64,000 nucleotides of DNA from Bacilli bacterium. GTDB lineage: Bacteria; Bacillota_I; Bacilli_A; RF39; UBA660. The stretch lies in NCBI GenBank assembly GCA_017612805.1, contig JAGAFD010000004.1, positions 1 through 64,000 of the forward strand. The letters are read 5' to 3'. Each line of letters starts with the position of its first letter. Positions within the stretch are counted from its first letter, which is position 1. Shown here piece by piece: positions 6,538-26,331 of this stretch. The position numbers and the translations under genes were made by a program. A model generated the notes under the pieces. The model was not told the origin of the DNA, did not search any database, and worked only from the letters and a program-made list of their open reading frames with translations.

Positions 6538-6566
6538 AAAAACGAGTAATTAATTACTCGTTTTCA
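6536..6566. terminator. bidirectional terminator
   Basis: ACGAGTAATT and AATTACTCGT form a perfect stem with A residues before it and T residues after it. It can end transcription from both converging genes, and it overlaps the 3' end of the minus-strand gene. Confidence 0.85.
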
Positions 6567-7237
6567 TTTTCGCTATTTTCATTATTTTCGCCATTATCCA
6601 CATTAGCGATTAAATCTTCGTCTAAGATTTGTTCAAAAGTTAAACTAGCTGTAATAGTTAATGTAGTATCATCGGTAGCAGCTAGTTCACCTACTGCGGT
6701 ATCATCATCGTCATCCATAGTTTCATCTTCACCATCATACCATTCGAAGAATACACGAATAGTGAAAGCGTCAAAACCATTGGATTCATTATCATATAAC
6801 ATATCGTTAGCTATTTCGCCATTAACTATATCTTCGTATTCTAATAAATCACCATCTTCATAATCATCAGGCAAGAAAGCATATTTAGTGATCATGATAT
6901 CTGGCATATCTTCATTGTCCATTTCAAGTTCAATTAAATATCTAAATGATACGTCAACATTCGTTGGATCGATTTCGATATCAAAGTAACCTTTGGATGT
7001 TGGTGCAATTGTATTGCTTTTAACATTATTACTTGCTTCAATGATTGGATTGAAGGTTATATTAGAACTGTTACTACTTGTAATATCAGTATTATTAACA
7101 AGCACCTGCCATTTGGCAAATAACATATCAATATTACTTTCTGTACCAGCGACATATCTAGAATATGTATTGCTGATAAAGCCAAGCGAAACCGCACATG
7201 ATATCAATAGTAGTATCAAGCATATACGTTTCTTCAT
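6554..7237 (-). CDS. TasA/camelysin-like secreted protein
   Basis: The 227-residue protein has a SipW-dependent-type signal. A hydrophobic core (residues 5-22) is followed by SNTYSRYVAGTES, and then FAKWQVLVNN starts the first strand, as in TasA and camelysin relatives. The middle (GYFDIEIDPTNVDVSFRYLI) resembles the spectator-bulge beta region of that fold, and FTIRVFFEWYDGEDE matches the conserved late-strand region. The C-terminus is extremely acidic, and the last 12 residues are mostly E and N. AGGAGG sits just upstream of the ATG. It is transcribed divergently from the fibre operon and shares a repeat-rich regulatory region (7255-7396). It is probably a minor or accessory fibre subunit. 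Confidence 0.75.
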   Translation of the reverse strand: MKKRICLILLLISCAVSLGFISNTYSRYVAGTESNIDMLFAKWQVLVNNTDITSSNSSNITFNPIIEASNNVKSNTIAPTSKGYFDIEIDPTNVDVSFRYLIELEMDNEDMPDIMITKYAFLPDDYEDGDLLEYEDIVNGEIANDMLYDNESNGFDAFTIRVFFEWYDGEDETMDDDDDTAVGELAATDDTTLTITASLTFEQILDEDLIANVDNGENNENSENENE

Positions 7238-7254
7238 AGATATACCGCCTCCTA

Positions 7255-7340
7255 ATTATAATGTAGTATATTTTACACTAACTTGCAATCTAATTTACAG
7301 TGTAAATTTGTAAAATATGTAAAAAGATGTAAAATATTAT
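7255..7340. promoter_or_regulatory. divergent regulatory region with TGTAAA array
   Basis: TGTAAA occurs on the + strand at 7301, 7309, 7318 and 7328. The first copy forms a perfect palindrome with AATTTACA (7292-7299) around G7300, and another inverted copy, TTTTACAC, lies at 7271-7278. A minus-strand -10 (TATACT) reads from 7270 to 7265. The array therefore lies between the two divergent promoters, at the -35 side of the minus one. It looks like an operator with several sites for one regulator. The regulator is not identified. Confidence 0.6.
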
Positions 7341-7366
7341 ACACTTTTTTGTTAATAGTTATTTGA

Positions 7367-7412
7367 TTGACTTACCAAACAATTTTGTTATATAATTACC
7401 TATAGTAGGGTA
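7367..7412 (+). promoter_or_regulatory. promoter and ATAGTAGGGTA leader element
   Basis: TTGACT (7367-7372) and TATAAT (7391-7396) are 18 bases apart. Six bases downstream the leader carries ATAGTAGGGTA (7402-7412). The same 11-mer occurs at 9985-9995 behind the main fibre promoter. The ATG at 7429 is 9 bases after GGTGG. Confidence 0.65.
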
Positions 7413-7428
7413 CTGGTGGTTGATACAA

Positions 7429-8151
7429 ATGAACAATGAAATCGAGGTAAGCGTATCTAAATTAAAGAGACGTAAAAAATTTATTAAAATCACTAGAATA
7501 GTATTACTACTATTACTACTATTATTGGTCTTATCTTATGTAGTAATGAACTTTATTTATAATAATGGTAACTTCAGTATTACGTTAGATAAAAACCTTT
7601 ACTTTGAAAGAGGCATCATTATATATGATGATCCTGACTACAAAGTATTTAGAACAGAGCTATATGCTAAACCGGTAGATTACTTTGATAACATATCTAA
7701 CAAATGGTTACCAGATAATCTAGAAAATACGAACGGTTCGCATAATGGTGAAAATTATTTAGCTTATACATTCTATGTTGAAAACACCGGAACTGATACT
7801 TCTGATTATTGGTCAGAAATTATTATTGACGATGTTATTAAGAATGTTGATGAAGCAGTAAGAATTCGTGTTTACAAAAACGGCAATTATATTACTTATG
7901 CTAAAATTGGTATAAATGGCCAAGCTGAAAAAGATACCATTCCATTTGTTAGAGATGATTTAGTATCTTTTGAACATCGCAAGGATTTTGCACCAGGTGA
8001 TATTGATAAATATACAATTGTAATCTGGATTGAAGGACATGACTTACAATGTACGGATAATATCTTAGGCGGCGAAATAAAAATGCATATGGAATTTAAT
8101 TCTGAATTTGTTGATATTGATCCTAAAAAATATGAAAAGAATATAGACTAA
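7429..8151 (+). CDS. membrane-anchored fibre-locus protein
   Basis: The 240-residue protein has a short basic N-terminus and one strong transmembrane segment of leucine/valine (residues about 23-46). An extracellular domain of about 190 residues follows. Residues 199-205 read IWIEGHD, the same strand motif found as IWIEGQD or close variants in the three downstream TasA-like proteins, so the domains are probably homologous. TYSYF/TYAWF is absent at the membrane exit, so this copy may stay anchored and act as a base or adaptor. The ATG at 7429 is chosen over TTG at 7420 because GGTGG at 7415-7419 abuts the latter. The product itself is unnamed. Confidence 0.7.
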   Translation: MNNEIEVSVSKLKRRKKFIKITRIVLLLLLLLLVLSYVVMNFIYNNGNFSITLDKNLYFERGIIIYDDPDYKVFRTELYAKPVDYFDNISNKWLPDNLENTNGSHNGENYLAYTFYVENTGTDTSDYWSEIIIDDVIKNVDEAVRIRVYKNGNYITYAKIGINGQAEKDTIPFVRDDLVSFEHRKDFAPGDIDKYTIVIWIEGHDLQCTDNILGGEIKMHMEFNSEFVDIDPKKYEKNID

Positions 8152-8165
8152 AAAGGGGAATGAAT

Positions 8166-8300
8166 ATGGAGGATAAAAAGGATTTCGATATTTCAAATTT
8201 AACGTTAGAAGAACTTATTGAATTATATAATGTCATTGTTTCATTCCAAAACTTTTTAGAAGAAAGTAAGATGGATGAAAGTGAGGCAGGAAATGAATAA
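8166..8300 (+). CDS. small acidic hypothetical protein (44 aa)
   Basis: This 44-residue frame starts at an ATG 8 bases after AAGGGG and ends at TAA 8298-8300, overlapping the next gene by eight bases. It is acidic and helical (LTLEELIELYNVIVSFQNFL, then EESKMDESEAG) with no membrane segment. The good ribosome site, tight spacing on both sides and amphipathic helix support a real gene. It may be a small partner of the coiled-coil protein encoded next. No family is recognised. Confidence 0.6.
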   Translation: MEDKKDFDISNLTLEELIELYNVIVSFQNFLEESKMDESEAGNE

Positions 8301-9903
8301 TTTTTTAGAGTTTATTAATAATGATATAGAAACTAAAAAAACTACTCTTCAATCAATGCCCACTAATAACAAGACCAATGTAAAAAAATATAACGCTAAG
8401 ATTGAATCAATTGAAAAGAAATATGATTATTATAAGGATGCCGTATTAAAATATATTAATGCGAAGAGTGAATCTTTTGAATGCGGTACAAGTAAAAAAG
8501 ATGATAATAAACAAAAGGAACAATTAGAAGAATATAAAAGAATATTAAAAATATTAAATCCGTCAAACACTTATGTTGAAAAACTAGGCTTTGATTCTTT
8601 ATTCTATGAAATTCATAATTATGCATCTTTTACTTTTGAAGATATTAATAATAGTATCGGTAAGTTGGTTGATATTTTTAAAAAAGCCCGTGTTAACTTA
8701 ACTGCTGAAGATTTTAAATATACTTATTTTGTTTATAAATATATGAGTGAGTTTTTAAAGGATAATTCTAATTTAGAAAACTTAAATACGATATTTGAAA
8801 AGATCTATTGGTATAATCCAAATATTATTGAACACATTGAACTTAACTTCAGAAAACTAATTGTTAAGTATCAAAAAAGTTTAGAATGTTATTTAAATGT
8901 TGAAAAGAAAAAAATTGTTTCAACAAATAAGTTTGAAGATTATGAAGATTTCTTTAAAGAGTATCAAAAATTATATAATGAAATTGAAAAAGCAAATAGT
9001 GAATCAATTGGTGATATCATTGAAATGGCTAAGAACAACGATATTGATATCAACAATTATTTTCCAGATTCTAAATTTAGAATAACTGTTTATTCAACAT
9101 TAACAATTAATGAAATTGATTATGGTGATCCGGAATCAGTTAACAAATTATTAGATACATTAAGAAGATTAAAAAATAATGTTATTGAATATTCAAATTA
9201 TTTAAAATTCAAACCATTATTTGACGATTTTAAAAATACATACGAAAAAGTTGCAGGTGTTGAAGCAAACAACCAAGCTTTAAAGAAAGTTGAAAAAGAA
9301 ATAGCTAATAAAGAAGCTAAGTTAGAAAGCATCAACAAAAAAATCTTTGGCAAATCAGGTTTTAGTTTATTTGGTAAAAAACCTGAATCAACAAAGAACT
9401 TAAAATTAGAACAAGTTAACATTGCTAAAGAATTATATACATTATATTATGAACAAGAAAAATTAAAGTTTGAAAACAAAATAATCAACATGAAAAAAGA
9501 ATCATCAATTGCAATCAGTGATGTATTAAAACTATATTATAGTTATGATTATTTCAAACGCGAAGAAATTCAAAAAGCATTTGCGTTGAAAGAATATAAT
9601 GAAATTAATGATATGTGTTATGAGTTCGATAAGTTTGCAGCTAATCCTAACAATATTATTGTTAACGGAATTGAAGCATTCAACAATGTTGATGTTGCTA
9701 ACATTATTTATAATAAATATCGTTTAGAAAACATTAACTTAGAAGAAAACGATCTTGATGAAGACAGCTTAGAAGTTGTAAAAAATAAAATCGACTTCAT
9801 GTTGAGAATCAACGCTATCGAAAACAGTAAGTCATCAATCGAAAAAATTTGGTTTATTGTTCAAAATGAAAAAATAAATGCAAAAGAGGCAAAGTCAGAA
9901 TAA
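8293..9903 (+). CDS. large helical cytosolic protein
   Basis: The 536-residue protein is almost entirely alpha-helical, rich in K, E, N and Y, with no signal peptide or transmembrane segment. Coiled-coil potential is clear around residues 315-360 (NNQALKKVEKEIANKEAKLE) and near the N-terminus. A glycine/phenylalanine hinge (FGKSGFSLFGKKP) interrupts the second coil. I recognise no family. It is co-translated with the 44-residue gene and ends just before the main fibre promoter, so it may be a cytosolic scaffold of the same system. The start at 8293 is used because AGGCAGG lies immediately upstream. Confidence 0.65.
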   Translation: MNNFLEFINNDIETKKTTLQSMPTNNKTNVKKYNAKIESIEKKYDYYKDAVLKYINAKSESFECGTSKKDDNKQKEQLEEYKRILKILNPSNTYVEKLGFDSLFYEIHNYASFTFEDINNSIGKLVDIFKKARVNLTAEDFKYTYFVYKYMSEFLKDNSNLENLNTIFEKIYWYNPNIIEHIELNFRKLIVKYQKSLECYLNVEKKKIVSTNKFEDYEDFFKEYQKLYNEIEKANSESIGDIIEMAKNNDIDINNYFPDSKFRITVYSTLTINEIDYGDPESVNKLLDTLRRLKNNVIEYSNYLKFKPLFDDFKNTYEKVAGVEANNQALKKVEKEIANKEAKLESINKKIFGKSGFSLFGKKPESTKNLKLEQVNIAKELYTLYYEQEKLKFENKIINMKKESSIAISDVLKLYYSYDYFKREEIQKAFALKEYNEINDMCYEFDKFAANPNNIIVNGIEAFNNVDVANIIYNKYRLENINLEENDLDEDSLEVVKNKIDFMLRINAIENSKSSIEKIWFIVQNEKINAKEAKSE

Positions 9904-9919
9904 TCTTTTGCATTTTTTT
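9877..9919 (+). terminator. Rho-independent terminator with 5' arm in coding sequence
   Basis: AAATGCAAAAGA (9877-9887 region, in the last codons of the preceding gene) pairs with TCTTTTGCATTT (9904-9915), and seven T residues follow. Confidence 0.75.
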
Positions 9920-9978
9920 ATTCAACAAAATTCGACTTTTTAATTGACAATTCAACGGCTTTCATATAAAATTATAAT
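9920..9978 (+). promoter_or_regulatory. main fibre operon promoter with Spo0A-box-like repeats
   Basis: ATTCAACAAA (9920-9929) matches 9 of 10 positions of the reverse 0A-box consensus ATTCGACAAA. ATTCGACTTT (9930-9939) keeps the TTCGAC core, and ATTCAAC recurs at 9950-9956. The starts are 9920, 9930 and 9950, multiples of one helical turn. TTGACA lies at 9944-9949 and TATAAT at 9973-9978, a 23-base spacer, which recalls the Spo0A-activated spoIIG promoter with its over-long spacer. An alternative -10 (TAAAAT, 9967-9972) gives a normal 17-base spacer. Control by Spo0A is inference. Confidence 0.55.
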
Positions 9979-9984
9979 TGTATG

Positions 9985-10032
9985 ATAGTAGGGTAGTATA
10001 TGTAAGGTAATTACAATATATATTTTACATAT
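9985..10032 (+). promoter_or_regulatory. leader element and hairpin of fibre mRNA
   Basis: ATAGTAGGGTA (9985-9995) repeats the leader element of 7402-7412. After it, ATATGTAA (9998-10005) and TTACATAT (10025-10032) can pair as an 8-base stem, and an inner palindrome GTAATTAC lies at 10007-10014. There is no T run, so it is not a terminator. It could stabilise the abundant mRNA or be a DNA operator. Confidence 0.5.
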
Positions 10033-10051
10033 CAAGCGAAAGGAAGAGAGT

Positions 10052-11665
10052 ATGAATAATAAGGAAAATACTAAATCAAAAAAGATTAAAAAACTGATTG
10101 CTATTTGCTTGATTTGTTCAATAATTTTTATTGCAGCAACTTATGCATGGTTCATAGGTATGAGAACTGTTAATGTTTCAAGCTTTGAAATCGACATAGC
10201 AAGTACAGATAGTTTACTTTTATCTCTAGATGGAAGTAAATGGGATACTACAGTAACAATTAATAGTAGTAACTTCACATCAGTATCTTATACTGGAAAT
10301 GTTAACAACTGGGCAGGACTTGGAACAGGAAGAACTGTTACTGGTTTAAAACCAATTTCTAGTATTGGAGAAATTGATACAACATCATCAACAATGAAGA
10401 TGTTTGAAAAAGGAAGTTTAACTGCTACACCTGGAGGATATCGATTATTAGCTAGTCGTATTCACAACTATCAATCTAATCAAGATTATGCTAATGCAGT
10501 AAATGCATATGGATTTAATACTGAAAATGGTGGATATGTTGCATTCGACTTATTCGTTAAAAACTTCTCTGGTGCTGCTTACTATACTGAAGATAATATA
10601 TTAAATGAAGAAGCAATTTACTTAACAACTGATTCAGAAGTAACTGTTGGTTCTACTGGTGTACAAGATGCTGGTATTGAAAACTCAGTTCGTGTAGCAT
10701 TTGCACAAATTGGTCGTGTAAATGGTAGAACAACTGATGTTGATACAATTACTGGTATTAAATGTTTACCTGGACAAAATTCTCCAGTAACTGGAATTTG
10801 TCGTGTTGCACAAATTTGGGAACCAAATGATACTGAACACGTAGCTGCAGCTATTAGTTATTATGATACTTCTTGTAGATTAAGACCTAACGCTGTATCT
10901 CCTGCTACTGATCCTACTGATATTACTTCTGCTGCTTCTTATACTTCTGGTAGTCATTGTGGAACAGTTGCAAACGGAACTGCTCGTAACACATATGCTA
11001 TTGGTCGTGTAGTTGATATTGCTGACCGCGTAGATGTATACGATGGTGCTCAATACAACGGATATACTAAAACAACAAGAGAAACATATACTGGTGCTCA
11101 ACCATTATATGCTTATGATTATTTCACAGATACTGAAAAAGATTTAGCAGGAATGCAAAGACCTGTATTCATAACTTTAGCTCCAAATAGTATTACAAAA
11201 ATTAGAGTATACATTTGGATCGAAGGTCAAGATGTTGATAACTATGATTTCTCATCTATTGGAAAACAAATAAAAGTTCAATTCGGATTCACTAAAGAAA
11301 GATTTACTGATGAAGAAGCACAAGGACAAGATGGTCCATACATGCCAACTGGTGATACTACTAAACCTGTATTTGCTGGTGTAGAAAGCACACTTGCATT
11401 AAGTACTGCTGAAGTTGCAAGTTATGATCCACTTGATGGTGTAACAGTTAGCGATGTAGGTGCTGAAACAACTGAAGAAGCATGTACTGCTAATGCTGGA
11501 ACATGGGATTCTCAAAATACAAAATGTATGTATGACTTAACTACTAAGATTCAAGTAACTAATCCAGTTACAGCTACTCCTGGTACTTACGTAGTTCGTT
11601 ATTTAGTAAGTGACTGGCAAGGAAATTATGCTGAAGCGTTTACTACCGTAACGGTAAGTAATTAA
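10052..11665 (+). CDS. TasA-like major fibre subunit with C-terminal Ig-like domain
   Basis: The 537-residue secreted protein has a SipW-dependent-type signal (hydrophobic 13-30, then TYAWFIG at 30-36). A large TasA/camelysin-like domain follows, with IWIEGQD at 388-394 and then KQIKVQFGFTKERF. The last 100 residues (DTTKPVFAGVESTLAL to YVVRYLVSDWQGNYAEAF) form a DUF5011/Ig-like domain of the kind found on bacterial surface proteins. Two Cys-rich stretches (IKCLPGQ...TGICR and EACTANAGTW...KCMYD) may form disulfides. It is 15 bases upstream of a close paralogue. It comes first in the operon, next to a regulated promoter, so it is probably the most expressed subunit. Confidence 0.78.
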   Translation: MNNKENTKSKKIKKLIAICLICSIIFIAATYAWFIGMRTVNVSSFEIDIASTDSLLLSLDGSKWDTTVTINSSNFTSVSYTGNVNNWAGLGTGRTVTGLKPISSIGEIDTTSSTMKMFEKGSLTATPGGYRLLASRIHNYQSNQDYANAVNAYGFNTENGGYVAFDLFVKNFSGAAYYTEDNILNEEAIYLTTDSEVTVGSTGVQDAGIENSVRVAFAQIGRVNGRTTDVDTITGIKCLPGQNSPVTGICRVAQIWEPNDTEHVAAAISYYDTSCRLRPNAVSPATDPTDITSAASYTSGSHCGTVANGTARNTYAIGRVVDIADRVDVYDGAQYNGYTKTTRETYTGAQPLYAYDYFTDTEKDLAGMQRPVFITLAPNSITKIRVYIWIEGQDVDNYDFSSIGKQIKVQFGFTKERFTDEEAQGQDGPYMPTGDTTKPVFAGVESTLALSTAEVASYDPLDGVTVSDVGAETTEEACTANAGTWDSQNTKCMYDLTTKIQVTNPVTATPGTYVVRYLVSDWQGNYAEAFTTVTVSN

Positions 11666-11680: not shown

Positions 11681-13375
11681 ATGGCAAAGAATAATAATAA
11701 GAGAAAAAAGAGAATATTACACTTAGCAATAATATTCACATTTACCGCTATTGTTTTTGGAGCTGCAACCTATGCATGGTTCATAGGTATGAGAACTGTT
11801 AATGTTAATCCATTCGAAGTTCAAATAGCTGCTACTGAAGATTTAGCATTATCGCTAGATGGAGTTCATTGGAGTGACACTGTTTCTATTAATGGTAGCA
11901 ACTTTAGAAATCCTGCTGCTGAATCTCCAGCACAAAATACTTTAGATGCTCAAAATAACCCATACAGTACCAATACCAATACTTGGGCTGGACGTGGATT
12001 AATTCCAATGTCATCTATTGGTGTTATTAACAAAGCAACAAGCCGTTTAACATTATTTGAAAAAGGTAGTTTAACTCAAACTACTGGTGGATATCGTTTA
12101 ATGGCTAGTAGAGTAAATAATGACTCTACTACTCCTGATGGATATGTTGCATTCGACTTATTTATCAAAAACTCTTCTGGTGAAGAATACTATGCAACTG
12201 ATAATCCTCTAAATGAAGAAGCAATTTATTTAACAAATGATTCAAAAGTACAAGTTGGATCTACTGGTGTTGCTAATACTGGTATTGAAAATTCTGTACG
12301 TGTAGCATTTGCACAAATTGGTCGTGTTATTTCAACGACAACTGATGCTAGTACAATTCAAGGTATTACTTGTTCAAATACTTCAACAAGTGGAGAAAAT
12401 CCAACTCCTATTGTAACTGGTATTTGTCGTACTGCTCAAATTTGGGAACCAAATGATACTAATCACGTAGTAGATGCATTAAGCTGGTATAATACTACAT
12501 GTAAAGCTAGAACTGGTGCTCAAACAAATTTAGCTGCATCTTATGGTGGCGTTTGTGGTACTGTTGTTAATGGTCAAGCTTATCCAACATATGCTATTGG
12601 TAAAGCTATTGAAGCTGTTAATGCTGTAGACGTATATGATGGTTCAGCATTTAACGGATATACTGCTGATATTGCTGCTGATGAAGCTACAGCAATTAGT
12701 ACTGAAGAAGGAAATACTGGTAAGTACTTATATGCTTATCCATATTTCACAGATACAATGAAATTAAAAACTGGTGTTGAACGCCCTGCATTTATTACTT
12801 TAGCTCCAAATAGTATTACTAAAGTTAGAGTATACATTTATATTGAAGGACAAGATATCGATAATTACGATTTTGCATCAATTGGTAAACAAATTAAAGT
12901 TAACTTTGGATTCACTAAAGAAAGATTCACTGAAGATGATATTAACTATCAAGGTCCAGTACTTAACAGAGGTGAAGGACCTAACCAAACTAGAGCTCAA
13001 ATTATTGAAGCATTAGAAGAAGAATTAGGTGATACTGCTACTGAAGCACAAATCATGGCTAAATTAAAAACAATCGATAAGACTGCTCCAGTTATCACAT
13101 TAAGTGGATCACAAAATCAAACTATAACTGCTGGTGGTACATTTACACAACCAACAATTACAGCGATTACTGATAACTTAACACCTTATACTCATAATAC
13201 AGAAAATGATGCTGATGAATGGGTTGGACCAACTGGTTCAAATATCAAAGCTTCAATTACTGGTACAGTAAATAATACTGTTCCTGGTACTTATAGAATA
13301 TTATATGAAGTTGCCGATGAAGCTGGTAACGTTGCTACAGAAACTGTAACAGTTGTTGTAACACCAAGCGAATAA
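11681..13375 (+). CDS. TasA-like major fibre subunit 2 with Ig-like domain
   Basis: This 564-residue paralogue of the preceding gene shares long blocks with it: ATYAWFIGMRTVNV at the signal exit, GGYRLMASRV, GYVAFDLFIKNSSGEEYY, IENSVRVAFAQIGRV, AQIWEPNDT and FITLAPNSITKVRVYI, then IYIEGQD at 386-392. Its C-terminal Ig-like domain starts at DKTAPVITLSGSQNQTI and is more canonical than that of the first copy. A linker with MAKLKTIDK precedes it. The two probably co-assemble or alternate in one fibre. Tandem duplication followed by divergence of the tip domain is inferred. Confidence 0.78.
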   Translation: MAKNNNKRKKRILHLAIIFTFTAIVFGAATYAWFIGMRTVNVNPFEVQIAATEDLALSLDGVHWSDTVSINGSNFRNPAAESPAQNTLDAQNNPYSTNTNTWAGRGLIPMSSIGVINKATSRLTLFEKGSLTQTTGGYRLMASRVNNDSTTPDGYVAFDLFIKNSSGEEYYATDNPLNEEAIYLTNDSKVQVGSTGVANTGIENSVRVAFAQIGRVISTTTDASTIQGITCSNTSTSGENPTPIVTGICRTAQIWEPNDTNHVVDALSWYNTTCKARTGAQTNLAASYGGVCGTVVNGQAYPTYAIGKAIEAVNAVDVYDGSAFNGYTADIAADEATAISTEEGNTGKYLYAYPYFTDTMKLKTGVERPAFITLAPNSITKVRVYIYIEGQDIDNYDFASIGKQIKVNFGFTKERFTEDDINYQGPVLNRGEGPNQTRAQIIEALEEELGDTATEAQIMAKLKTIDKTAPVITLSGSQNQTITAGGTFTQPTITAITDNLTPYTHNTENDADEWVGPTGSNIKASITGTVNNTVPGTYRILYEVADEAGNVATETVTVVVTPSE

Positions 13376-13438: not shown

Positions 13439-13456
13439 TTATTAATGGAGGACTTT

Positions 13457-14542
13457 ATGGAAACGGAAAATGAAAATAAAAGTAAAAATAAATTTCCTTT
13501 TTTCAAAATCAGAAAAAAGACCGTTATTATACTTCTAATCACGTTTTTTGTTACTGCTGTATTACTTGCAGCAACCTATGCATGGTTTTCAGCTTCATTA
13601 AACGTTAAAGTAAAGTTCTTTGATTTAAAAGTTTCAACCGATACCGGATTATTTATTTCCCTAGATGGTATTACTTTTTCCGATTCGATTGAAGTGTCCC
13701 TTGATTCAGTAATTAGAGATTTAAAAGCAACTTATCCTAATCACACTAATCAATGGGCAATAAATGGATTATGGTCAGTTTCAACCAATGGTATTCCTGA
13801 TCCTAATTCAAGTAAATTTGCCGTTTATGCTGGCGGTATGCGTAAGTATACTGACCGTGCTCGTAAAGGACAAAGATATTTAAATACTTATTTACTAGAT
13901 GAAAGTGAACCTAGTGAAGCTAACAAATATGTAGCATTTGATATATTCTTAAAAAATGCTTCTGGTTCACCAAAAAAAGATAATTTATACTTAAGTCCAA
14001 TGACCTACATTGGTTTTGATTCTACAGCATCACAAGAAACAATAGAAAATATGCAAGATATTTTAAATACTTTGCGTTTAGGAATTGTTAAAATTGGTGA
14101 AACATCAACTAAATCAGATGTTAAAACTATTCAAAACCTACAATGCAATAATGAATGCATGTCAGTGATTTATGAACCATACAGTTTGGATCATAATGAG
14201 GAATCGGTTAATGCGGTTGCTGGATTTAATATTAATATTGAAGATCAGACGTATGTTCCTACTTATGGGGTAATCAAAGAAGGAAGATATCTAGATCATA
14301 AGAGTGGATTTGTTAATTCGGGGGTTAATTTAGATACAGAACATTTTGCCTTACAACATACCATTTTTGAAAAGGATTTTGAAGATCCAATCTTCCAAGT
14401 ACCTAATGGTATAACGAAAGCCAGAGTTTATTTATGGATTGAAGGGCAAGATGTTGATGCTTTAGAGGTTTTCTCAGAAGGAGCTCCAATATATCTAAAT
14501 TTAGAGTTTGATAAGGACTTGGCTGGTTACGAAGGATTCTAG
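13457..14542 (+). CDS. TasA-like fibre subunit (third paralogue)
   Basis: The 361-residue protein is related to the two before it. A basic N-terminus is followed by a hydrophobic segment ending in AATYAWFSAS, then a strand region KFFDLKVSTDTGLFISLDG, KYVAFDIFLKNASGSP, and LWIEGQDVD at 326-334. It lacks the C-terminal Ig-like domain, so it is the bare TasA-like core. The ATG at 13457 follows GGAGG at 13448-13452; the in-frame ATG at 13445 overlaps that site and is rejected. It is a likely minor subunit or adaptor. Confidence 0.75.
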   Translation: METENENKSKNKFPFFKIRKKTVIILLITFFVTAVLLAATYAWFSASLNVKVKFFDLKVSTDTGLFISLDGITFSDSIEVSLDSVIRDLKATYPNHTNQWAINGLWSVSTNGIPDPNSSKFAVYAGGMRKYTDRARKGQRYLNTYLLDESEPSEANKYVAFDIFLKNASGSPKKDNLYLSPMTYIGFDSTASQETIENMQDILNTLRLGIVKIGETSTKSDVKTIQNLQCNNECMSVIYEPYSLDHNEESVNAVAGFNINIEDQTYVPTYGVIKEGRYLDHKSGFVNSGVNLDTEHFALQHTIFEKDFEDPIFQVPNGITKARVYLWIEGQDVDALEVFSEGAPIYLNLEFDKDLAGYEGF

Positions 14543-17697: not shown

Positions 17698-17706
17698 GTG
17701 ATTAGC

Positions 17707-18234
17707 ATGAAGAAAAAGATAATTATTATATCAATTGCAGCAATTTTAATTCTTTTAATTGCTGGAGCAACCTATTCTTATTTTGTCTCAAATACGAATA
17801 TGACTAGTGTTGATCAACATATTGCCAAATTTATTTTTAATAGTGATTCACTAGATCACTTAGAGATTCCTTTAAGTGGTTTAAAGCCTGGCGATGTTAA
17901 AGAATACAGTTTTGAAGTAAGTAATAATACTGATCATGTAATTAGTGATGTTAATATTAGTTATACTTTATCGCTTTTAACACCACATTACATGCCATTA
18001 GTAATTGAATTATATAAAGATGAAACTTTATTAATGACTTGTGATGAATCATATAGTCGTAATAATCAAAATGAATTAGTATGTAATACAACTACTCAAG
18101 AATTAGATTATCATGAAGAAGTAAATGATAATTATACTTTAAAAATTACTTTTGATAGTAATTATAATTCTTTAGATTATGCTAATTTAATTGATTATTT
18201 AAATATTGAAATAAGAAGTTATCAGAAAGTATAG
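17707..18234 (+). CDS. small TasA-like subunit
   Basis: The 175-residue protein has a signal segment IIIISIAAILILLIAGATYSYF (SipW-type exit TYSYF). A single beta-rich domain follows. KFIFNSDSLDHLEIPLSGLK and EYSFEVSNNTDHVISDVNIS have the look of the TasA core, in which a 'GD-x-x-E-x-x-F-x-V-x-N' strand is common. The ATG at 17707 lies behind AGGTGATT; the in-frame GTG at 17698 is part of that site. It is a minor fibre component by context. Confidence 0.72.
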   Translation: MKKKIIIISIAAILILLIAGATYSYFVSNTNMTSVDQHIAKFIFNSDSLDHLEIPLSGLKPGDVKEYSFEVSNNTDHVISDVNISYTLSLLTPHYMPLVIELYKDETLLMTCDESYSRNNQNELVCNTTTQELDYHEEVNDNYTLKITFDSNYNSLDYANLIDYLNIEIRSYQKV

Positions 18235-18242: not shown

Positions 18243-19121
18243 ATGTCTTCTAATATGAAGAAAATTATCATTATATTTATCATAGTAATAGCAATATTAG
18301 TATGTTCATTATCAACTTATGCTATCTATGCTAAAGATTCAATTTATAATTATTATCTTGAATCTAAAGGCTTTTATTTAACTAGTGATAGCTTAGGCAA
18401 TGACCTACTTAATACTAATACGCTTTGGGATGGTAATAGTATTCATTTAAGTGTTAATAATTACACTTCAAATAATAATATTACTGACTATGATATAAGA
18501 TATACGATATCTTGTGAATTATTAGATAATGTAACAGGTACTTGTACATTTAACGGTACTAATAATAGTTCCCTAAACTTAACGTTATCACATAATGAAT
18601 CATGTTTTAATAACTTAGATCAAGTTGATGTTTCAAATCTTAATAAAACGGATTGTGAACTAGGTGGTTATACATGGGTAAATAATAAAGTTAATCAAGA
18701 TGTATATTTTAATTTAAATATTGATAATAGTATTACTGATGTAAGGGTTAAAATAACTTTAAGAGCAACATCACCATATCAAAAAACATTAACCGGAATT
18801 TATCGCTTACATAAAGCTGAATTAAATACTGGTAGTTTAACAAAAAGTATTAATCCTAATAATTTATATAATGATTTAATAATCACTAATTCTTATAATA
18901 CTGATAAGTGTGTTAGAGTGACATTTGATAGTTCTAAAAGAGTATTAGATGACCATATAAATATTGCCTCATCACTTAGTGATAACAATAATTATATTAA
19001 TGATTTTAAAGTATTAGTTCCGGGATTAAGTAATAAAAAGATCTCATTATATAATAAACAAAATATATTAAATGATGACTATAATGATATTGACATTGAA
19101 GAATCAACTGGCTGTGTTTAG
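18243..19121 (+). CDS. minor secreted subunit of the fibre locus
   Basis: The 292-residue protein has a hydrophobic N-terminus (5-24) ending LSTYAIYAKDSI, similar to the SipW-type signals of its neighbours. It continues as a beta-rich, Asn-rich exported domain. Six or so cysteines (CELLDN, GTCTF, ESCFNN, TDCELGG, DKCVRV, TGCV) could form disulfides, and an oxidising outer surface fits this. The AGGTGATTAT site and the 8-base gap from the previous stop place it in the same operon, as the last gene before the next promoter. The specific role is unknown. Confidence 0.65.
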   Translation: MSSNMKKIIIIFIIVIAILVCSLSTYAIYAKDSIYNYYLESKGFYLTSDSLGNDLLNTNTLWDGNSIHLSVNNYTSNNNITDYDIRYTISCELLDNVTGTCTFNGTNNSSLNLTLSHNESCFNNLDQVDVSNLNKTDCELGGYTWVNNKVNQDVYFNLNIDNSITDVRVKITLRATSPYQKTLTGIYRLHKAELNTGSLTKSINPNNLYNDLIITNSYNTDKCVRVTFDSSKRVLDDHINIASSLSDNNNYINDFKVLVPGLSNKKISLYNKQNILNDDYNDIDIEESTGCV

Positions 19122-19180: not shown

Positions 19181-19720
19181 ATGAAGGTATTTAAAACAAT
19201 TAAAACAGTTATTATAAGCATATTAATCCTATTATTCTTAGGATTCACAATATTTTTAACAATCCTAGTATTTAATAATAATAAATACGGATTATCACAA
19301 TTTGATGAAACAACGATCTTAGTTATTAAGAAAAGTTTTGCATCAGAAAATTATAAAAAAGGTGACTTAGTAATTGTTGAATCCAAACCAATTAAAGATT
19401 ATAAAATAGGTGAAGATGTCTTTACTTATCATTTAGATGGTCAAGGTGGTGTTAACATCAACTTTGGTCGTATTGGTCAAGTACATGAACAAGATAAAGC
19501 TATCACTTATGAAAATGGTGAAACATACTCAGAGGAATTTATCATGGGTGTTGGTACTAAAAAGTATGAAAAGATTGGTACTTATTATGGAATAATTATG
19601 TCTAAATGGGGCTTCTTATTTGTCATTTTAATTCCAAACTTCTTCATTTTCGTATATCAATTATATACTTTAATTATTGAAATTAAATTTAGAAAAGATG
19701 ATGAACCACAAAACGCTTAA
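19181..19720 (+). CDS. SipW-like signal peptidase homologue, probably inactive
   Basis: The 179-residue protein has SipW topology: an N-terminal membrane segment (10-32), an external domain and a C-terminal membrane segment (145-165). KKGDLVIVES (59-68) matches the 'GD-x-V' strand after the catalytic serine. The serine position may survive as S52 in KKSFAS, but the SGSMEP box is not intact. Where active relatives have the histidine of THRVI or THEVV, this protein reads NFGRIG (94-99), so the general base is missing, and no TKGDxN motif follows. It is therefore likely a pseudo-peptidase with a binding or chaperone role. It has its own promoter and terminator. Confidence 0.65.
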   Translation: MKVFKTIKTVIISILILLFLGFTIFLTILVFNNNKYGLSQFDETTILVIKKSFASENYKKGDLVIVESKPIKDYKIGEDVFTYHLDGQGGVNINFGRIGQVHEQDKAITYENGETYSEEFIMGVGTKKYEKIGTYYGIIMSKWGFLFVILIPNFFIFVYQLYTLIIEIKFRKDDEPQNA

Positions 19721-19795: not shown

Positions 19796-21826
19796 ATGAA
19801 GAGCAAAAAATTATCAACAAAATTAATCGATATTATCTTAAATATTGTGATGATTTTTTGTGCTTTTTTTTTGTTGATATCTATTTATAACTTTGTTCAA
19901 GTAAAAGTACTAAAAAATGATTATTCTAACCTATTTGGTTATGCTTTATTTGAAGTAGAAACTGGTAGTATGAAACCAACCATTAATCCTGGTGATTGGA
20001 TTATTGTAAAAGCTACTCAAGATATTAAAGTAAATGATATCGTAACTTATAAACAAGGCAAAAACTTTATTACTCATCGTGTAATTGAATCTTATAAAGG
20101 AACTTATGTCACAAAAGGTGATAATAATAATACCAAAGATAAAGCAATCGATCAAAGTCAAATTATTGGTCGTAAAGTAAAAATTTTACCAAGATTTGGC
20201 ATTATTAAAAAGACTGTTTTAAATCCTGTAGTTATCATTGTTGTATTAATAACGATTGCCCTTTTAAGTTTATATATTAAGATGAGCCAAAAAGAAGATA
20301 AGAAACCATTTAAATTATTTAAAGATAAACCTAAAAAAGAAAAGGCCGTAAAAGATAACATTTCTAAACAAATTGATGATTTTAAAGACGATGAGGTACC
20401 TAATAAAGAAATTAATCCGGTTAATGAAGAAGAAATTAGTAAAACTAGAATGTTTAGAATAATTAGTGTTAATGATGATGATTATGACACAGTTGATGCT
20501 GATAATATAGCTGATGTTAAAGAATTAGAAAAAGCATTAAATAGTGATGATCTTGATGAAATGGAAAAACAAGAAGAAAGTATGACTAAAATGTTTAGAA
20601 TAATCCATGTTGAAGAAGATCCTGAAGACGAAATAATTATTCCAGAAGCAGAAATTGAAGAAGAAAAACCTACAGAAGAAGAAAAGAAACCTAAAAAGAA
20701 AACCGACATTAAATTAGAAGCTCTAGAAATAGAAGAAGTTAAAACTGAAACCAAAATAACGAAAGATTATATAACTAATTTAATAACGGCTAAAAAAGCC
20801 AAGAATGTTTTAGATAAAGCTTTCTTTATTAAAAAAATTATCTATGATGAAATAATTAATGTTTTATTACAAGATGAAAGAGTTTATATAATTAAATCTT
20901 CTTTAAGAACTGAATACATGAATAAATATTTAACTATTAGATACTTTGGCTTAGATGAAGAAAGAGCTAATACTGTTAAATTATTAAAAGAATATCATGA
21001 TAAATTAACTAAACAATTTATTCGCGATGAACGTAAAAGAAATATTATTGATGCTTATACTAATTGCTTCTTACTAATTAATAAGATTGAAAACAAAAAG
21101 AATCTTGATTTAAAAGAAGAATTAAATAAGTTATTTATTGATTATCCAGCAAGTTATATTAATAATATGGCTTTAAATATTAATAACATTATTAATTTTG
21201 CTAATCAAAACCTACAAGATATCTTAGAAAAATTTGAATCAAATAGTTTTTCTGTATCATATAACAAATTTAATAATGAACCACATTTAATTGGTACTTA
21301 TCTAGAACATAATATCAATTTTAGTAAAGTGTATAGTGATTATATTGTTGATAAAACTTATAATGAAGGCGTTATTTCAGAAGATAAATTAGCTATTTTA
21401 GTAAATATGCTATTATGTCGTATCATCAATGATTTAAATAATCGTAACTTTAATGATAAATACTTTATTTATATTCCTAAAGATTTATATGATAAAGATA
21501 AAAAATTAGATCATATCGCATCTTTATTTGATAATGATTATGCTAAATCACATATTTATATAACTACTACTATTTCTAATATGCTAAGAAATAAAGATGA
21601 TATTAAAAGATTAAAGAAAAAAGGTTATCAATTTGCCGTAATCTTTAATCAAAGTATTAATCTAGCTAATGAAGATTTAGGATACTTATATATGGCAGAT
21701 TATTATTTTGTTGATGAAAATATTGATTTTAAAGCAATCAAGAAAACTTTACCTAAAGATATTGTTAAGAAAACTATTAACGACAATATAACTAAACGTT
21801 TAGGAAATATCGGAGGTGACCTATAA
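19796..21826 (+). CDS. SipW-type signal peptidase fused to a large cytosolic domain
   Basis: The first 165 residues are a complete ER/SipW-type signal peptidase: membrane segment 12-35, TGSMKP with catalytic S58, THRVI with H94, TKGDNNN with D109 and D115, then a second membrane segment (144-161). Unlike SipW (about 190 aa), about 510 further residues follow on the cytosolic side. The linker (165-310) is charged and carries two copies of a MFRII motif (219-223 and 266-270), each followed by an acidic stretch. The last 350 residues are helical with no recognised family. Its stop overlaps the start of the AAA+ ATPase gene by one base, suggesting that the cytosolic part works with that ATPase. 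It processes or assembles TasA-like proteins by inference. Confidence 0.72.
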   Translation: MKSKKLSTKLIDIILNIVMIFCAFFLLISIYNFVQVKVLKNDYSNLFGYALFEVETGSMKPTINPGDWIIVKATQDIKVNDIVTYKQGKNFITHRVIESYKGTYVTKGDNNNTKDKAIDQSQIIGRKVKILPRFGIIKKTVLNPVVIIVVLITIALLSLYIKMSQKEDKKPFKLFKDKPKKEKAVKDNISKQIDDFKDDEVPNKEINPVNEEEISKTRMFRIISVNDDDYDTVDADNIADVKELEKALNSDDLDEMEKQEESMTKMFRIIHVEEDPEDEIIIPEAEIEEEKPTEEEKKPKKKTDIKLEALEIEEVKTETKITKDYITNLITAKKAKNVLDKAFFIKKIIYDEIINVLLQDERVYIIKSSLRTEYMNKYLTIRYFGLDEERANTVKLLKEYHDKLTKQFIRDERKRNIIDAYTNCFLLINKIENKKNLDLKEELNKLFIDYPASYINNMALNINNIINFANQNLQDILEKFESNSFSVSYNKFNNEPHLIGTYLEHNINFSKVYSDYIVDKTYNEGVISEDKLAILVNMLLCRIINDLNNRNFNDKYFIYIPKDLYDKDKKLDHIASLFDNDYAKSHIYITTTISNMLRNKDDIKRLKKKGYQFAVIFNQSINLANEDLGYLYMADYYFVDENIDFKAIKKTLPKDIVKKTINDNITKRLGNIGGDL

Positions 21827-23376
21827 TGAATACATTTTTTAGATTCTTTTATGAATTCGTATCAATCTTTATAGGTGGTATCACTGATATCTTTAAAGGT
21901 ATTTATAAAGGTATTACTAAGATGTTTAATATCTTTAGTTATAAAAAAATATTACAAAGTTATGGTAGTGCATTTAATGTTGGTGAATGGATTTTAGCTA
22001 TCCTAACGATTGTATTATTAACATCAATTGTTATTGCTTTCTTAATTTTAGTAATATCACGTTTAAGAAAATATTTAAGATTAAGAAGACAAAAACTTAA
22101 TCAAGATGAATTATTAGATGAAATTGATAATTTAAATAATAAAGTTCGTAAATTAATGAAAGAAAAAGATGAATTAATGGCGATGAAAGTTTCACAATTA
22201 GGTTTAAGTCCTGATGGTGAAGAAGGAACCGGTGAAGGTACTGATGCTGGTGATGCATCTGATTCTGAAGATCCTGATAAAGATAAAAATGCTGGAAATA
22301 TTCGTTTCCCTAAACTTAATCGTATTGATCAAGAAATGGAAGGATTTAAAGCTAAGAATTATAATAATAACTTCACATTAGAAGAATTAATTGATAATTT
22401 TAGATGCTTTGCTGCTTCCCAATTACATCTATATTATAATGAATCATTATTAAGAGCATTCTTTGGTGGACTTGCTTGTTCTAAATTAATCATCTTACAA
22501 GGTATTTCTGGTACTGGTAAAACTTCTCTTGCATATGCTTGGGGAAAATTTGTTAAACATAATTCATGTATTGCATCAGTACAACCATCTTGGCGTGATA
22601 AAACAGAATTACTTGGTTACTTTAACGAATTCACCAAAAAGTTCAATGAAAGTAACGTATTAGAAGAATTATATATTTCACGTTTTGATGATGATGTTCA
22701 TACCGTTATCCTAGATGAAATGAACATTGCTCGTGTAGAATACTATTTCGCAGAAATGTTATCAGTTTTGGAAGTTCCAAACCGTAATGAATGGGTAATT
22801 GAACTAGTAACAACTACTTGGTTAGATGACCCTAAACTATTAGATCATGGTAAATTAAAATTACCATCTAACTTATGGTATATCGGAACTATCAACAACG
22901 ATGACTCTACCTTCATGGTAACCGATAAAGTATACGATAGAGCAATGCCTATCGATATCAATGAAAAAATTGATCCATTCGCTTGTCGTGAACAAGAAGC
23001 AATGGATATTAACTGTAGTTATGTTGAAAACTTATTTAATAATGCTATTCAAGAACATGCCGTATCTGAAAAAGGTATTAACATTATTAATAAACTAGAT
23101 GATTATGTTATTCAACATTTCCGTATTGCGTTTGGTAATCGTATTATGAAACAATTAAAAGCATTCGTTCCAGTATATGTTGCATGTGGTGGCGATGAAG
23201 TTTCTGGTATCGATTATTTCTTAGCAAAAAAGGTATTAAGAAAATTTGAACAATTAAACTTAATCTTAATTCGTGATGAAATTGATGGTTTCATCAAATA
23301 TTTAAACAAAGAATTTGGTACTGGTAATATGAAAGAATGTATTGAATTCCTAGAAAGACTTAAAAAATCAGCTTAA
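21826..23376 (+). CDS. membrane-anchored McrB-family AAA+ ATPase
   Basis: The 516-residue protein has an amphipathic N-terminus and a transmembrane segment (55-78). A coiled coil (90-125) and an acidic, Gly-rich linker (130-155) follow. The AAA+ module has Walker A GISGTGKTS (226-234) and Walker B VILDEMN (294-300) followed by IARVEYYFAEMLSVLE, the signature of McrB-type ATPases. Its sensor strand is IGTINND (353-359), and DKVYDRA (367-373) stands where McrB has its ALRRRF element. McrB normally carries an N-terminal DNA-binding domain, which is absent here and replaced by a membrane anchor. It lies in one operon with signal peptidases and a DUF2357 protein. Role proposed: ATP-driven remodelling at the membrane during fibre export. 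Confidence 0.8.
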   Translation: MNTFFRFFYEFVSIFIGGITDIFKGIYKGITKMFNIFSYKKILQSYGSAFNVGEWILAILTIVLLTSIVIAFLILVISRLRKYLRLRRQKLNQDELLDEIDNLNNKVRKLMKEKDELMAMKVSQLGLSPDGEEGTGEGTDAGDASDSEDPDKDKNAGNIRFPKLNRIDQEMEGFKAKNYNNNFTLEELIDNFRCFAASQLHLYYNESLLRAFFGGLACSKLIILQGISGTGKTSLAYAWGKFVKHNSCIASVQPSWRDKTELLGYFNEFTKKFNESNVLEELYISRFDDDVHTVILDEMNIARVEYYFAEMLSVLEVPNRNEWVIELVTTTWLDDPKLLDHGKLKLPSNLWYIGTINNDDSTFMVTDKVYDRAMPIDINEKIDPFACREQEAMDINCSYVENLFNNAIQEHAVSEKGINIINKLDDYVIQHFRIAFGNRIMKQLKAFVPVYVACGGDEVSGIDYFLAKKVLRKFEQLNLILIRDEIDGFIKYLNKEFGTGNMKECIEFLERLKKSA

Positions 23377-23394
23377 TAAAAGAAGGTGTTATGA

Positions 23395-24525
23395 ATGGTT
23401 AAAAAGATTTGTTTATCAGTTGATAAAGAGACCAAAGATCAAACTGATAATTTTAATCGACATAATAAATCTAAATTAGATTATGAATCTTCATATAATG
23501 GTAACCTTAATTCATTGGAATGGTTAGAAATCATTGAAGAAGTAGTACCATATTTAGATAATATCGTTCGTGCACCAAAAGTATCTTTAGTTGGTGAAAC
23601 TGAAGTTCGAAAAATTGAAAAAGCTAAAAAAACAAGTGTTGATACCGTTAAGGATTTATCAAAACATACCGATTACATCGATAAAGTTGATCCTAAAACT
23701 GGTGATGTTCTTCCCTCAAAACTATTAGTTAGTTTTAGGGAAGATACTTTTAACACTTATGAAAATCGTTTTATTTATACATTAATATTAAATCTGTTAA
23801 GGTTTATTACTGAAAAAGAAGAAGAACTAAAAAGTTATAAACCCAAAACTAATAAAGAATTAAGTTATACAGCTACTACTTCTAATGGTAAAGAAAAAGT
23901 AGAAATAAATCTCTCAATTAATACTAGACCTACTGGAAAACCGGGTGGTAGTAGTGATATTGATAAAACACTAAGTAATATTAAAAAAAGGATGGCAAAA
24001 ATCAAGAAATTTATTAATGCTTGGTTAGCATCAGAATTAATTGTATCGTTAGAAAAACAACATGCAATTTTAGTAATGCCTCCGGTTAAAAAAACAAATC
24101 TTATTTTAAAAAATCCTAACTTCAAAATGGCGACTAAGCTATGGGATTTCTTATATAGTGTTAATGAACAAAAGAATAAAAAGTCTAGTGGCCTTAGTTC
24201 TAAGGGTGATGATTTATTAAAATATGTTTTAGATTCATCATTCTTAATGGATTACTATGTTTTAGATGCCATTTCGGTTGATAAAAACGAACAAAAAGAT
24301 AAACTATGTAAGTATGCATTGTTAATTATAATGAATCAAGTACAAACAGCCGTTAATATTTTGTTAGAAAATGGTATTAAAATTAGTGAAGAAGAATTAT
24401 TAAGATTATTAAGTACGGAATTAACTAAGAAGAAAAATGTTAATCAAATTGGTAGTTCCGATATTAAGAAAAAGTTCCAAAAAGAAATGGATGATTACTT
24501 AAGTAGAACTACTAAGTACTTATAG
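23395..24525 (+). CDS. DUF2357/McrC-like partner of the AAA+ ATPase
   Basis: This 376-residue cytosolic protein carries LLVSFREDTFNTYENRFIY (about 110-128), the 'T-x-ENRF' motif of the DUF2357/McrC N-terminal family whose members pair with McrB-like ATPases. The usual PD-(D/E)xK nuclease signature is not visible in the C-terminal half, which is helical (KKRMAKIKKFINAWLASE, LLRLLSTELTKKK). In McrBC the C subunit binds the hexameric ATPase and stimulates it. A corresponding regulatory or bridging job is inferred here. It starts 18 bases after the ATPase stop and ends 8 bases before the sipW gene. Confidence 0.65.
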   Translation: MVKKICLSVDKETKDQTDNFNRHNKSKLDYESSYNGNLNSLEWLEIIEEVVPYLDNIVRAPKVSLVGETEVRKIEKAKKTSVDTVKDLSKHTDYIDKVDPKTGDVLPSKLLVSFREDTFNTYENRFIYTLILNLLRFITEKEEELKSYKPKTNKELSYTATTSNGKEKVEINLSINTRPTGKPGGSSDIDKTLSNIKKRMAKIKKFINAWLASELIVSLEKQHAILVMPPVKKTNLILKNPNFKMATKLWDFLYSVNEQKNKKSSGLSSKGDDLLKYVLDSSFLMDYYVLDAISVDKNEQKDKLCKYALLIIMNQVQTAVNILLENGIKISEEELLRLLSTELTKKKNVNQIGSSDIKKKFQKEMDDYLSRTTKYL

Positions 24526-24533
24526 GAGGATAT

Positions 24534-25100
24534 ATGAAGAAATTAAAAGAAAATAAAATATTTAAAGTTGTATCAATTATTTTCAAAACCATTATTTTTA
24601 TTTTATTAGCTGGTTTTGTATTATGTGTTTGCTTACAACGTTTTAGTAATAATCGTTTGTCAATCTTTAACTATCGTATGTTTACGGTAATTTCAGGATC
24701 AATGGAACCATTATATAAGATTGGAGACGTATTAATTGCTAAAGAAGTTGATCCAACATCAATTAAAGTTGGTGATAACATTAGTTATTTAGGTAAAACT
24801 AACAACTTTGCTAATAAAGTTGTTACCCATGAAGTTGTTGGTATTGATAAAAGTGATAATGGAAAGTTAATTTTTCATACTAAAGGTTTAGCTAATATTG
24901 TTGAAGATCCAGTTGTCTCTGAAGATCAATTATATGGTAAAGTAATTTATAAAACCTTTTTGATTTCACTAGTATATAAGATAGTTAGTACTAATATTGG
25001 TTTTTATTTATTTATAATAATTCCAATATTATATATTATATCTTCAGAAATAATTTCAGTAATGTTAGACAAAGAGGAAAAAAGAAGAGCACAAGAATAA
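24534..25100 (+). CDS. sipW: SipW-type signal peptidase I
   Basis: The 188-residue membrane serine protease of the ER/SipW class removes signals of TasA-like substrates at the outer face. Membrane segments lie at 12-35 and about 153-175. The catalytic serine is S56 in VISGSMEPLYKIGD, and the histidine general base is H99 in KVVTHEVVG. The third motif reads TKGLANIVED instead of the usual TKGDAN, so the first aspartate is lost and D125 may substitute. It is preceded by the DUF2357 gene and followed by a TasA-like gene in the same transcript. The context of SipW-type signals around it supports the assignment. Confidence 0.85.
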   Translation: MKKLKENKIFKVVSIIFKTIIFILLAGFVLCVCLQRFSNNRLSIFNYRMFTVISGSMEPLYKIGDVLIAKEVDPTSIKVGDNISYLGKTNNFANKVVTHEVVGIDKSDNGKLIFHTKGLANIVEDPVVSEDQLYGKVIYKTFLISLVYKIVSTNIGFYLFIIIPILYIISSEIISVMLDKEEKRRAQE

Positions 25101-25113
25101 GGATGTGATTTAA

Positions 25114-26331
25114 ATGAAGGAGCGTTATAAGAGATATCTAAAAATATACTTGATACCTATCTTTTTTATCGCTACTTCTTTTATTTTTACCACATTTGCT
25201 TGGTTTGCATATTCCGGTTTAAGTAGAGTATCAACTGAAATTGATGTTAAGGCTTGGTATATTGAATTAAAAAAAGATGGACAGACGGTATCAAATGATA
25301 TTGTTATTACTCTTGATAATGTTTATCCAGGAATGGATCCAGTTGATGAAAAGGTTAGTATTCAAAATAAAGGTGATTCTGACGCCAAACTAACTTATGA
25401 AATATCTTCAATACGCTTAATGGATACGGTTATAGATAGTGCTAGTTATACCAGTGATGAATTAAACGATCGCCTATCCCACGATTATCCTTTTCATGTT
25501 AATGTTAATTTAAGTAAGAATTATGTATTACATAATAATGATTCTTCCATGTTTGAAGTATCGGTTTCATGGCCACTAGATTCCCTAAATGATGCCCTTG
25601 ATTCAACTTGGGGTAATGATGCATATACCTTTATTCAAGGCGAAAAAGCTCATAAAGCAAGTGATCCTGATTATAACATGCGTCCCGTTGTACAAATAAT
25701 TATTAGTGTTACTGCGGAACAATACATAGAAGAATCAACGGCTAGTGATACGAAGTATAATTTGGGTGATACGATTTTATATGATGTTGTTGCTAATCAA
25801 AAATGTAATGCGGTTAGTTCAACATGTATTAGTACTACGGTTATTGATTATAATTCTAAATTAAGTGATACCACGGTTACTCTATTGCCTTCCCTTTATA
25901 ATACGTTTAGTGAAGGAACTTATGGCAATTACAGTACGGCACTAACTACTGCTACTGCCACATGGTCTGCTAACACTAGAATGTTAGAAGCAAGTGATTT
26001 ATTAAAAATTATTTCGCTTGATGTGGTAAATTCAGCATTAACCGCAAGTAATATTTCACCACAAATTATTGGTAATTTAAGTTATGGAACAAGAATGACT
26101 ACTGAAATTGCTCGTGCCATTACTTTAAACGGTAAGTATGAGTTCTTAAATAACAAATATCCATTTTTAGATCATTCGGGATGTTTTTGGACCAGTACTA
26201 ATTATAATGAATTAAATGGCTTTGCTCTTGCCAAAAAAGATGCTAATAAATCGGAAATATTAGGTACTACCAAAAGTACTACTTGTAAATATATTCCGGT
26301 AATTATCGCACCAAAAGCTAATATTAATTAA
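25114..26331 (+). CDS. TasA-like secreted protein
   Basis: The 405-residue protein has a SipW-type signal (IYLIPIFFIATSFIFTTFAWFAYS, read as a hydrophobic segment from about residue 12 with the TFAWF exit). The first domain (EIDVKAWYIELKKDGQTV, then ITLDNVYPGMDPVDEKVSI, QNKGDSDAKLTYEIS) fits the TasA/camelysin core. The C-terminal 120 residues contain four cysteines (NQKCN, STCIS, SGCFW, TTCKY) and the segment DHSGCFWTSTNYNELNGFAL, which resembles a C-type lectin-like or sulfatase-modifying-factor fold end, though weakly. It is the last gene of the peptidase/AAA+ operon. Confidence 0.7.
   Translation: MKERYKRYLKIYLIPIFFIATSFIFTTFAWFAYSGLSRVSTEIDVKAWYIELKKDGQTVSNDIVITLDNVYPGMDPVDEKVSIQNKGDSDAKLTYEISSIRLMDTVIDSASYTSDELNDRLSHDYPFHVNVNLSKNYVLHNNDSSMFEVSVSWPLDSLNDALDSTWGNDAYTFIQGEKAHKASDPDYNMRPVVQIIISVTAEQYIEESTASDTKYNLGDTILYDVVANQKCNAVSSTCISTTVIDYNSKLSDTTVTLLPSLYNTFSEGTYGNYSTALTTATATWSANTRMLEASDLLKIISLDVVNSALTASNISPQIIGNLSYGTRMTTEIARAITLNGKYEFLNNKYPFLDHSGCFWTSTNYNELNGFALAKKDANKSEILGTTKSTTCKYIPVIIAPKANIN

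Follow-up and report, generated by a model that had tools for sequence, protein, structure and literature searches.

Why should a gene pair resembling the restriction system McrBC sit in the middle of a cluster coding for exported, fibre-like proteins and signal peptidases of the SipW family? The question is raised by a 64,000-nucleotide stretch of contig JAGAFD010000004.1 (hereafter the window) from a gut-type Bacilli bacterium whose genome (1.05 Mb) is 94% complete. The original prediction saw in this cluster a candidate new system, in which a membrane-anchored complex derived from McrBC serves TasA-like surface fibres. The claim to novelty does not hold, as such systems were named CoCoPALM in 2024 by Bell et al., i.e., NxD McrB GTPases with an FtsB-like transmembrane/coiled-coil domain and linked signal peptidase and pilus-assembly genes, which the main text of that paper treats in one paragraph without cargo (PMC11090510). 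No later description of CoCoPALM was found in the literature searched, and searches joining TasA, SipW and McrB returned only unrelated work. Going by that main text, a membrane McrBC machine for surface proteins is not new as an idea, and the window system is a variant of this named, undescribed kind. The best reading of the evidence presented here is a role in the processing or assembly of surface proteins, not in DNA restriction.

All ORFs of the cluster (6554-26331) are open, and all except one flanking gene are on the forward strand. This flanking gene (6554-7237, reverse strand) codes for an exported protein with the SipW-type signal peptide NTYS↓RY, and most loci that include the flank have it at the edge of the cluster, likewise in antisense. 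The next gene codes for a membrane-anchored exported protein, a candidate fibre base, with a single transmembrane (TM) segment and no cleavage motif (7420-8151), homologues of which are 42-64% identical across loci and also occur in the type 2 loci described below. It is followed by a gene (8275-9903) whose product is a conserved cytosolic coiled-coil member of the cluster with no Pfam or other known family. Three fibre-like exported subunits with TYA↓WF signal peptides come after these, of which the first (10052-11665) carries a weak C-terminal Ig-like domain and the second (11681-13375) a C-terminal Ig-like domain matching PF16403 (4e-9), the third lying at 13445-14542. Further along are a large exported protein of 1047 aa with weak Ig-like repeats (14554-17697), a TasA/camelysin-like exported subunit of the Peptidase_M73 family (17698-18234) and an exported protein with a TYA↓IY signal peptide (18243-19121), and the last gene of the cluster (25114-26331) codes for an exported subunit with a TFA↓WF signal peptide. 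The 7420, 8275 and exported genes recur near the ATPase gene in related loci. Elsewhere in the window we noted by eye a serpin-like membrane-anchored protein (32452-34059) and a BspA-like surface protein (58099-60780) with an NPNTG-TM-positive stretch that resembles a sortase signal and lies in mid-protein.

SipW-style signal peptides (TYA↓WF, TFA↓WF, TYS↓YF, TYS↓RY, TYA↓IY) are common to the exported proteins, an aromatic residue at P2' being a SipW-specific feature of TasA (PMC10269814), and the fibre-like family shares with the 7420 product a C-terminal WIEGxD region. The expectation of many TasA-type proteins proved overstated: only the 17698 product matches the TasA family (PF12389, 3.6e-6, above the family cut-off) and the main fibre-like subunits have no such match. 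Of the traits of a TasA/camelysin operon, the cluster has the SipW-type peptidase and, in 17698 only, the TasA-family subunit. Against the PDB, the profiles built for 17698, for the 10052/11681/13445 family and for 7420 hit no TasA structure, nor did the model of the 13445 product (all-beta, pLDDT 81) give a significant match among PDB structures. A TasA fold for the main fibre subunits is unsupported by profile or by fold, the latter judged from this one model.

Two of the three predicted SipW homologues stand as peptidases, i.e., the domain encoded at 19796-20330 (TIGR02228, 2.6e-21; Ser in GSM, His in THR) and the product of 24534-25100 (TIGR02228, 5.8e-25), both of which keep the catalytic Ser and His. 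The third (19181-19720) has the SipW fold and two TM segments; at the Ser position (SGSM) and the His position (THR/THQ) the catalytic residues are absent throughout its family, and judging from this alignment it is a pseudo-peptidase. With its profile, SipW-like proteins of type 2 loci are found, such as one of 221 aa in L118 (6e-14). The 19796 gene fuses its peptidase to a separate domain of ca. 345 aa (20789-21826), here called X, and the peptidase domain is followed by a second TM segment and a basic linker, so that X should be cytosolic. SipW and X are fused in the window's lineage, X being a separate gene of ca. 330 aa in more distant loci (many labelled Clostridia), and in both lineages X or SipW-X directly precedes the ATPase gene. 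At the level of gene organization, this fused/split pattern ties the peptidase to the ATPase by the Rosetta-stone principle.

The ATPase itself (21826-23376) has an amphipathic N terminus, a TM segment (residues 56-74), a coiled-coil-like region and an AAA+ domain with the motifs GISGTGKT, ILDEMN and GTINNDDST, the last being the NxD motif, followed by D or E as it should be in CoCoPALM. Both motifs on which the prediction relied are present, VILDEMN-IARVEYYF (Walker B region) here and TYENRF in the neighbouring DUF2357 protein, and the McrB assignment is independently backed by NCBIfam McrB (2e-5) and by a profile whose sole PDB matches are McrB chains (2e-5 to 3e-5). McrB uses GTP, which leaves the ATP drive of the original prediction putative. 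All type 1 (window-type) members checked carry GTINNDDST (or NDEST) and most relatives GTANxDDST, i.e., the ATPase is of the NxD type and does not have the NxxD signature of restriction McrB. Residues 57-110 give a weak FtsL-type match (E 0.024), and the FtsB-like TM and coiled coil fused to McrB that characterize CoCoPALM are found in this protein. Full-length relatives were not found on phages or plasmids.

The partner gene (23395-24525) codes for a DUF2357 protein (McrC N-terminal domain; PF09823, 1.1e-13; YENRF). In an alignment of 18 diverse members no Asp or Glu is invariant after E123, which excludes a conserved PD-(D/E)xK site; the nuclease that typifies the McrC partner in McrBC is not seen in this protein. 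The only match to the PDB was a chance coiled-coil one, and residues 165-214 give a weak coiled-coil-like match, a possible counterpart of the coiled coils fused to McrC homologues in CoCoPALM.

The packing of these genes is as tight as predicted, with a 1-base overlap between the 19796 and 21826 genes and then gaps of 18, 8 and 13 bases through 26331. A search of genome contigs with the ATPase gave 452 relatives, and the best 80 of these 452 loci, with ATPases 57-87% identical over the full length, were examined. Where the contig was long enough, SipW-X or X precedes the ATPase in 79/79 and DUF2357 follows it in 77/77; among the same best 80, the gene after DUF2357 codes for SipW in 74 of 75 and the one after that for an exported subunit (69/72), and the median gaps are 3 and 14 bases. 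Across these ca. 80 loci, the gene order is conserved far beyond chance. The prediction passes its own refuting check: the ATPase/DUF2357 pair is never apart from SipW and exported genes in the best 80 loci, and in an unbiased class-wide survey of DUF2357 almost every pair had SipW, exported or EAL genes for neighbours, a single one looking like canonical McrBC. The signal peptidase association of CoCoPALM is thus found here; the HEPN/nuclease partner of CoCoNuT is not, no methyltransferase, HEPN or other nuclease being recognised among the cluster proteins.

What X contributes is best approached through its predicted structure, a confident model (pLDDT 90.1) consisting of a helical bundle and an EAL-like alpha/beta domain. 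Nearly all of the 50 PDB matches listed by Foldseek are EAL domains, including FimX and LapD (best 9.6e-5), with moderate TM-scores of about 0.3-0.5 and rmsd mostly >6 Å, and the C-terminal half of the 19796 product (X) is accordingly predicted to have the EAL (c-di-GMP receptor) fold. By sequence, the X profile found nothing in the PDB and had no significant match to EAL profiles (P 0.058; P 0.018 against the EALs of the clusters), and Pfam EAL is detected in 1/49 members of the family (0.014), i.e., X does not belong to EAL by sequence or catalytic motif. As Pfam detects no GGDEF or EAL in the window genome, c-di-GMP binding by X is disfavoured in this organism and X would serve there as a signal-free scaffold.

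Relatives outside the window type were sought in a phylum search (ATPase family in 86/392 genomes) and an independent DUF2357 survey (62/198 genomes of the class), and sister loci of 5-20 kb were sorted into six types. Type 1 is the window type, with SipW in 7/7 loci. Type 2 has the order SipW-AAA-DUF2357-SipW, to which anchor and fibre genes are added (SipW 43/45, EAL genes 21/45). Type 3 (L121, L122, L125, L226, L231) consists of a giant surface protein of 2000-2800 aa, a degenerate GGDEF-EAL protein, AAA and DUF2357 (EAL 5/5); the giant protein of L121, the one scanned, has cadherin-like repeats. In type 4 (L126, L130-L138, L232), AAA-DUF2357-AAA tandems adjoin single-TM surface proteins of 600-1800 aa, some with transglutaminase or adhesin-type domains. 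Both AAA domains of a locus are identical to each other in L126, L131 and L132, which suggests gene conversion. Type 5 (SipW 12/14) groups exported proteins and a SipW-like protein with an AAA, DUF2357 and an ABC transporter, the AAA being multi-TM in L139-L148, L235 and L236, and type 6 has a multi-TM AAA of ca. 900 aa and DUF2357. McrB-like proteins of about 900 aa were seen in L146, L150 and L151; at least a dozen TM segments are predicted in that of L150, and the McrB-like/DUF2357 pair of L146 directly adjoins a type 5 cluster. As types 3, 4 and 6 are without SipW, this peptidase is not obligatory for the machine. In the ATPase tree, types 1, 4, 5 and 6 each form one group, type 3 falls inside type 2, and L238, a locus with an EAL gene, splits off beside type 1, at its base. 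L237 is the sole locus with a full-length-type DUF2357 match (2.8e-68) outside a surface-gene context.

The GGDEF-EAL gene of type 3 lies immediately before that of the ATPase in each of the five loci, at a distance of -1 to 24 bases, which is the very position occupied by X, and the EAL motif of its product is degenerate, the EAL, N, E and K residues being lost. In type 2, most of the EAL proteins of ca. 460 aa keep EALLR and have DDFG altered to DGFG or less, a sequence pattern that would be expected of a receptor, not an enzyme, comparable to the degenerate EAL receptors BpfD/LapD (PMC11395469). EAL genes occur in 26/50 type 2/3 loci against ca. 5% expected per random 20-kb stretch, a rough expectation derived from the EAL-positive genomes of the class, each of which holds a few EAL genes in 1-3 Mb; related genomes are not independent. 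GGDEF matches in 18/20 relatives were not accepted as evidence of c-di-GMP synthesis, many being proteins of ca. 680 aa, a length that would fit GdpP, an enzyme of c-di-AMP whose GGDEF is degenerate. The EAL genes of the sister loci and the predicted fold of X, neither of which figures in the original prediction, suggest that a surface machine of McrBC type carries a LapD-like switch, and since sister lineages hold a degenerate GGDEF-EAL in the slot of X, the ancestral input was probably c-di-GMP via a LapD/FimX-like receptor.

We thus consider it reasonably likely that a nuclease-free, membrane-anchored machine of the McrBC (CoCoPALM) type runs a dedicated surface-fibre system, in the following manner. 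The SipW enzymes would remove signal peptides of the TYA↓WF type from the exported subunits, while the AAA+ protein would form a hexamer on the inner membrane face, with DUF2357 inserted as an activating stalk, as in McrC. This ring would dock on the EAL-like X, covalently joined to the signal peptidase in the window organism, and nucleotide hydrolysis would gate either processing or the step in which subunits are released and polymerise onto the 7420 product as their membrane anchor. Gene linkage and nuclease loss are well supported by the sequence comparisons; what we infer is how the machine is gated and that c-di-GMP had a part in its history. The predicted membrane-anchored complex serving surface fibres therefore stands as far as the fixed linkage (best 80 loci and class survey) carries it, its TasA-like character being borne out only in part and the evidence fitting export, processing and polymerisation of the subunits alike.

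Could the pair instead be a Type IV restriction or other anti-phage system (McrBC/CoCoNuT) that lies among surface genes by happenstance? AAA+ and DUF2357 are homologous to McrB and McrC, and PADLOC has a defence candidate, PDC-M26A, that hits the AAA domain at 6.5e-35, PDC-M26 itself not being found in the literature searched. However, PADLOC has no match for DUF2357, SipW-X, 8275 or 18243, the linkage to SipW and exported genes is fixed across divergent lineages with a conservation that looks vertical, and the cluster has no recognised methyltransferase or nuclease. On the loss of nuclease residues, this linkage and the lack of full-length copies on phages or plasmids, we reject defence as the main explanation and consider it very unlikely; more probably, the motor powers or regulates how surface fibres are built. 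It is also conceivable that an ordinary SipW/TasA locus has merely acquired an independent neighbour by chance, given that no ATPase takes part when SipW of Bacillus processes TasA. The near-invariant neighbours and near-zero gaps of the best 80 of 452 loci, together with the recurrence of the pairing in types 2 and 5, make this extremely improbable.

Two further alternatives concern how the machine works. Instead of gating the peptidase, AAA+ and DUF2357 could act in quality control, extracting uncleaved, stalled subunits or TM remnants from the membrane. AAA+ rings commonly unfold or extract substrates, and in types 3 and 4, which lack SipW, the same machine goes with single-TM surface proteins of very large size. 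Yet the X-SipW fusion points to the peptidase as the docking site, and we know of no polypeptide threading by McrB rings; we regard extraction as unlikely. The other alternative, compatible with the rest of the fibre-machine reading, is that X converged on an EAL-like alpha/beta fold and is an adaptor only, with no c-di-GMP history in the window type. The failure of sequence profiles to detect EAL and the lack of Pfam GGDEF/EAL in the window genome fit such a convergence, whereas the predominance of EAL domains among the top structural matches listed and the EAL genes in the same slot of sister loci render it rather doubtful.

Should the fibre-machine reading be correct, a defence engine would have come to regulate how the cell surface is assembled, with a second-messenger (c-di-GMP) input. 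The CoCoPALM systems, named but not described so far, would gain a first mechanism that can be tested, and a surface-fibre locus common among the uncultured Bacilli of the gut would be explained. It would also warn against calling McrB/DUF2357 pairs restriction systems, PADLOC listing a homologue as a defence candidate. More tentatively, and with the balance slightly against it, the loci may represent a whole class of nucleotide-driven, McrBC-derived membrane machines of Bacillota, ancestrally gated by c-di-GMP via a LapD-like degenerate EAL protein and controlling signal-peptidase processing and assembly of fibres or giant adhesins, in which case restriction machinery would have been turned into secretion control.

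Among known systems, E. coli McrBC (Type IV restriction) shares with the window system the AAA+ fold, the Walker motifs and the DUF2357 partner, from which the latter differs by NxD in place of NxxD, a membrane anchor, surface-protein neighbours and no recognised nuclease or DNA-binding domain. To our knowledge, the tapA-sipW-tasA operon of Bacillus has no ATPase, DUF2357 or EAL gene. That of B. subtilis is similar in its SipW peptidase, camelysin/TasA-family subunit and aromatic P2' (rule in PMC10269814), and differs in that the main subunits of the window are without a TasA match. Lap/Bpf (LapD, LapG, LapA; PMC11395469) and FimX resemble it in tying a degenerate membrane EAL protein to a protease and adhesin, or to pilus assembly; compared with Lap/Bpf, the window system has no c-di-GMP enzymes by Pfam, its SipW is a signal peptidase and an NTPase that would form a ring is present. 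CoCoPALM, as outlined in the main text of Bell et al. (PMC11090510), is alike in its NxD McrB fused to a TM/coiled-coil region, its McrC homologue and its linked signal peptidase genes, and beyond that text the present loci add exported cargo, a pseudo-SipW, the SipW-X fusion, an EAL-like X and the link to GGDEF-EAL proteins.
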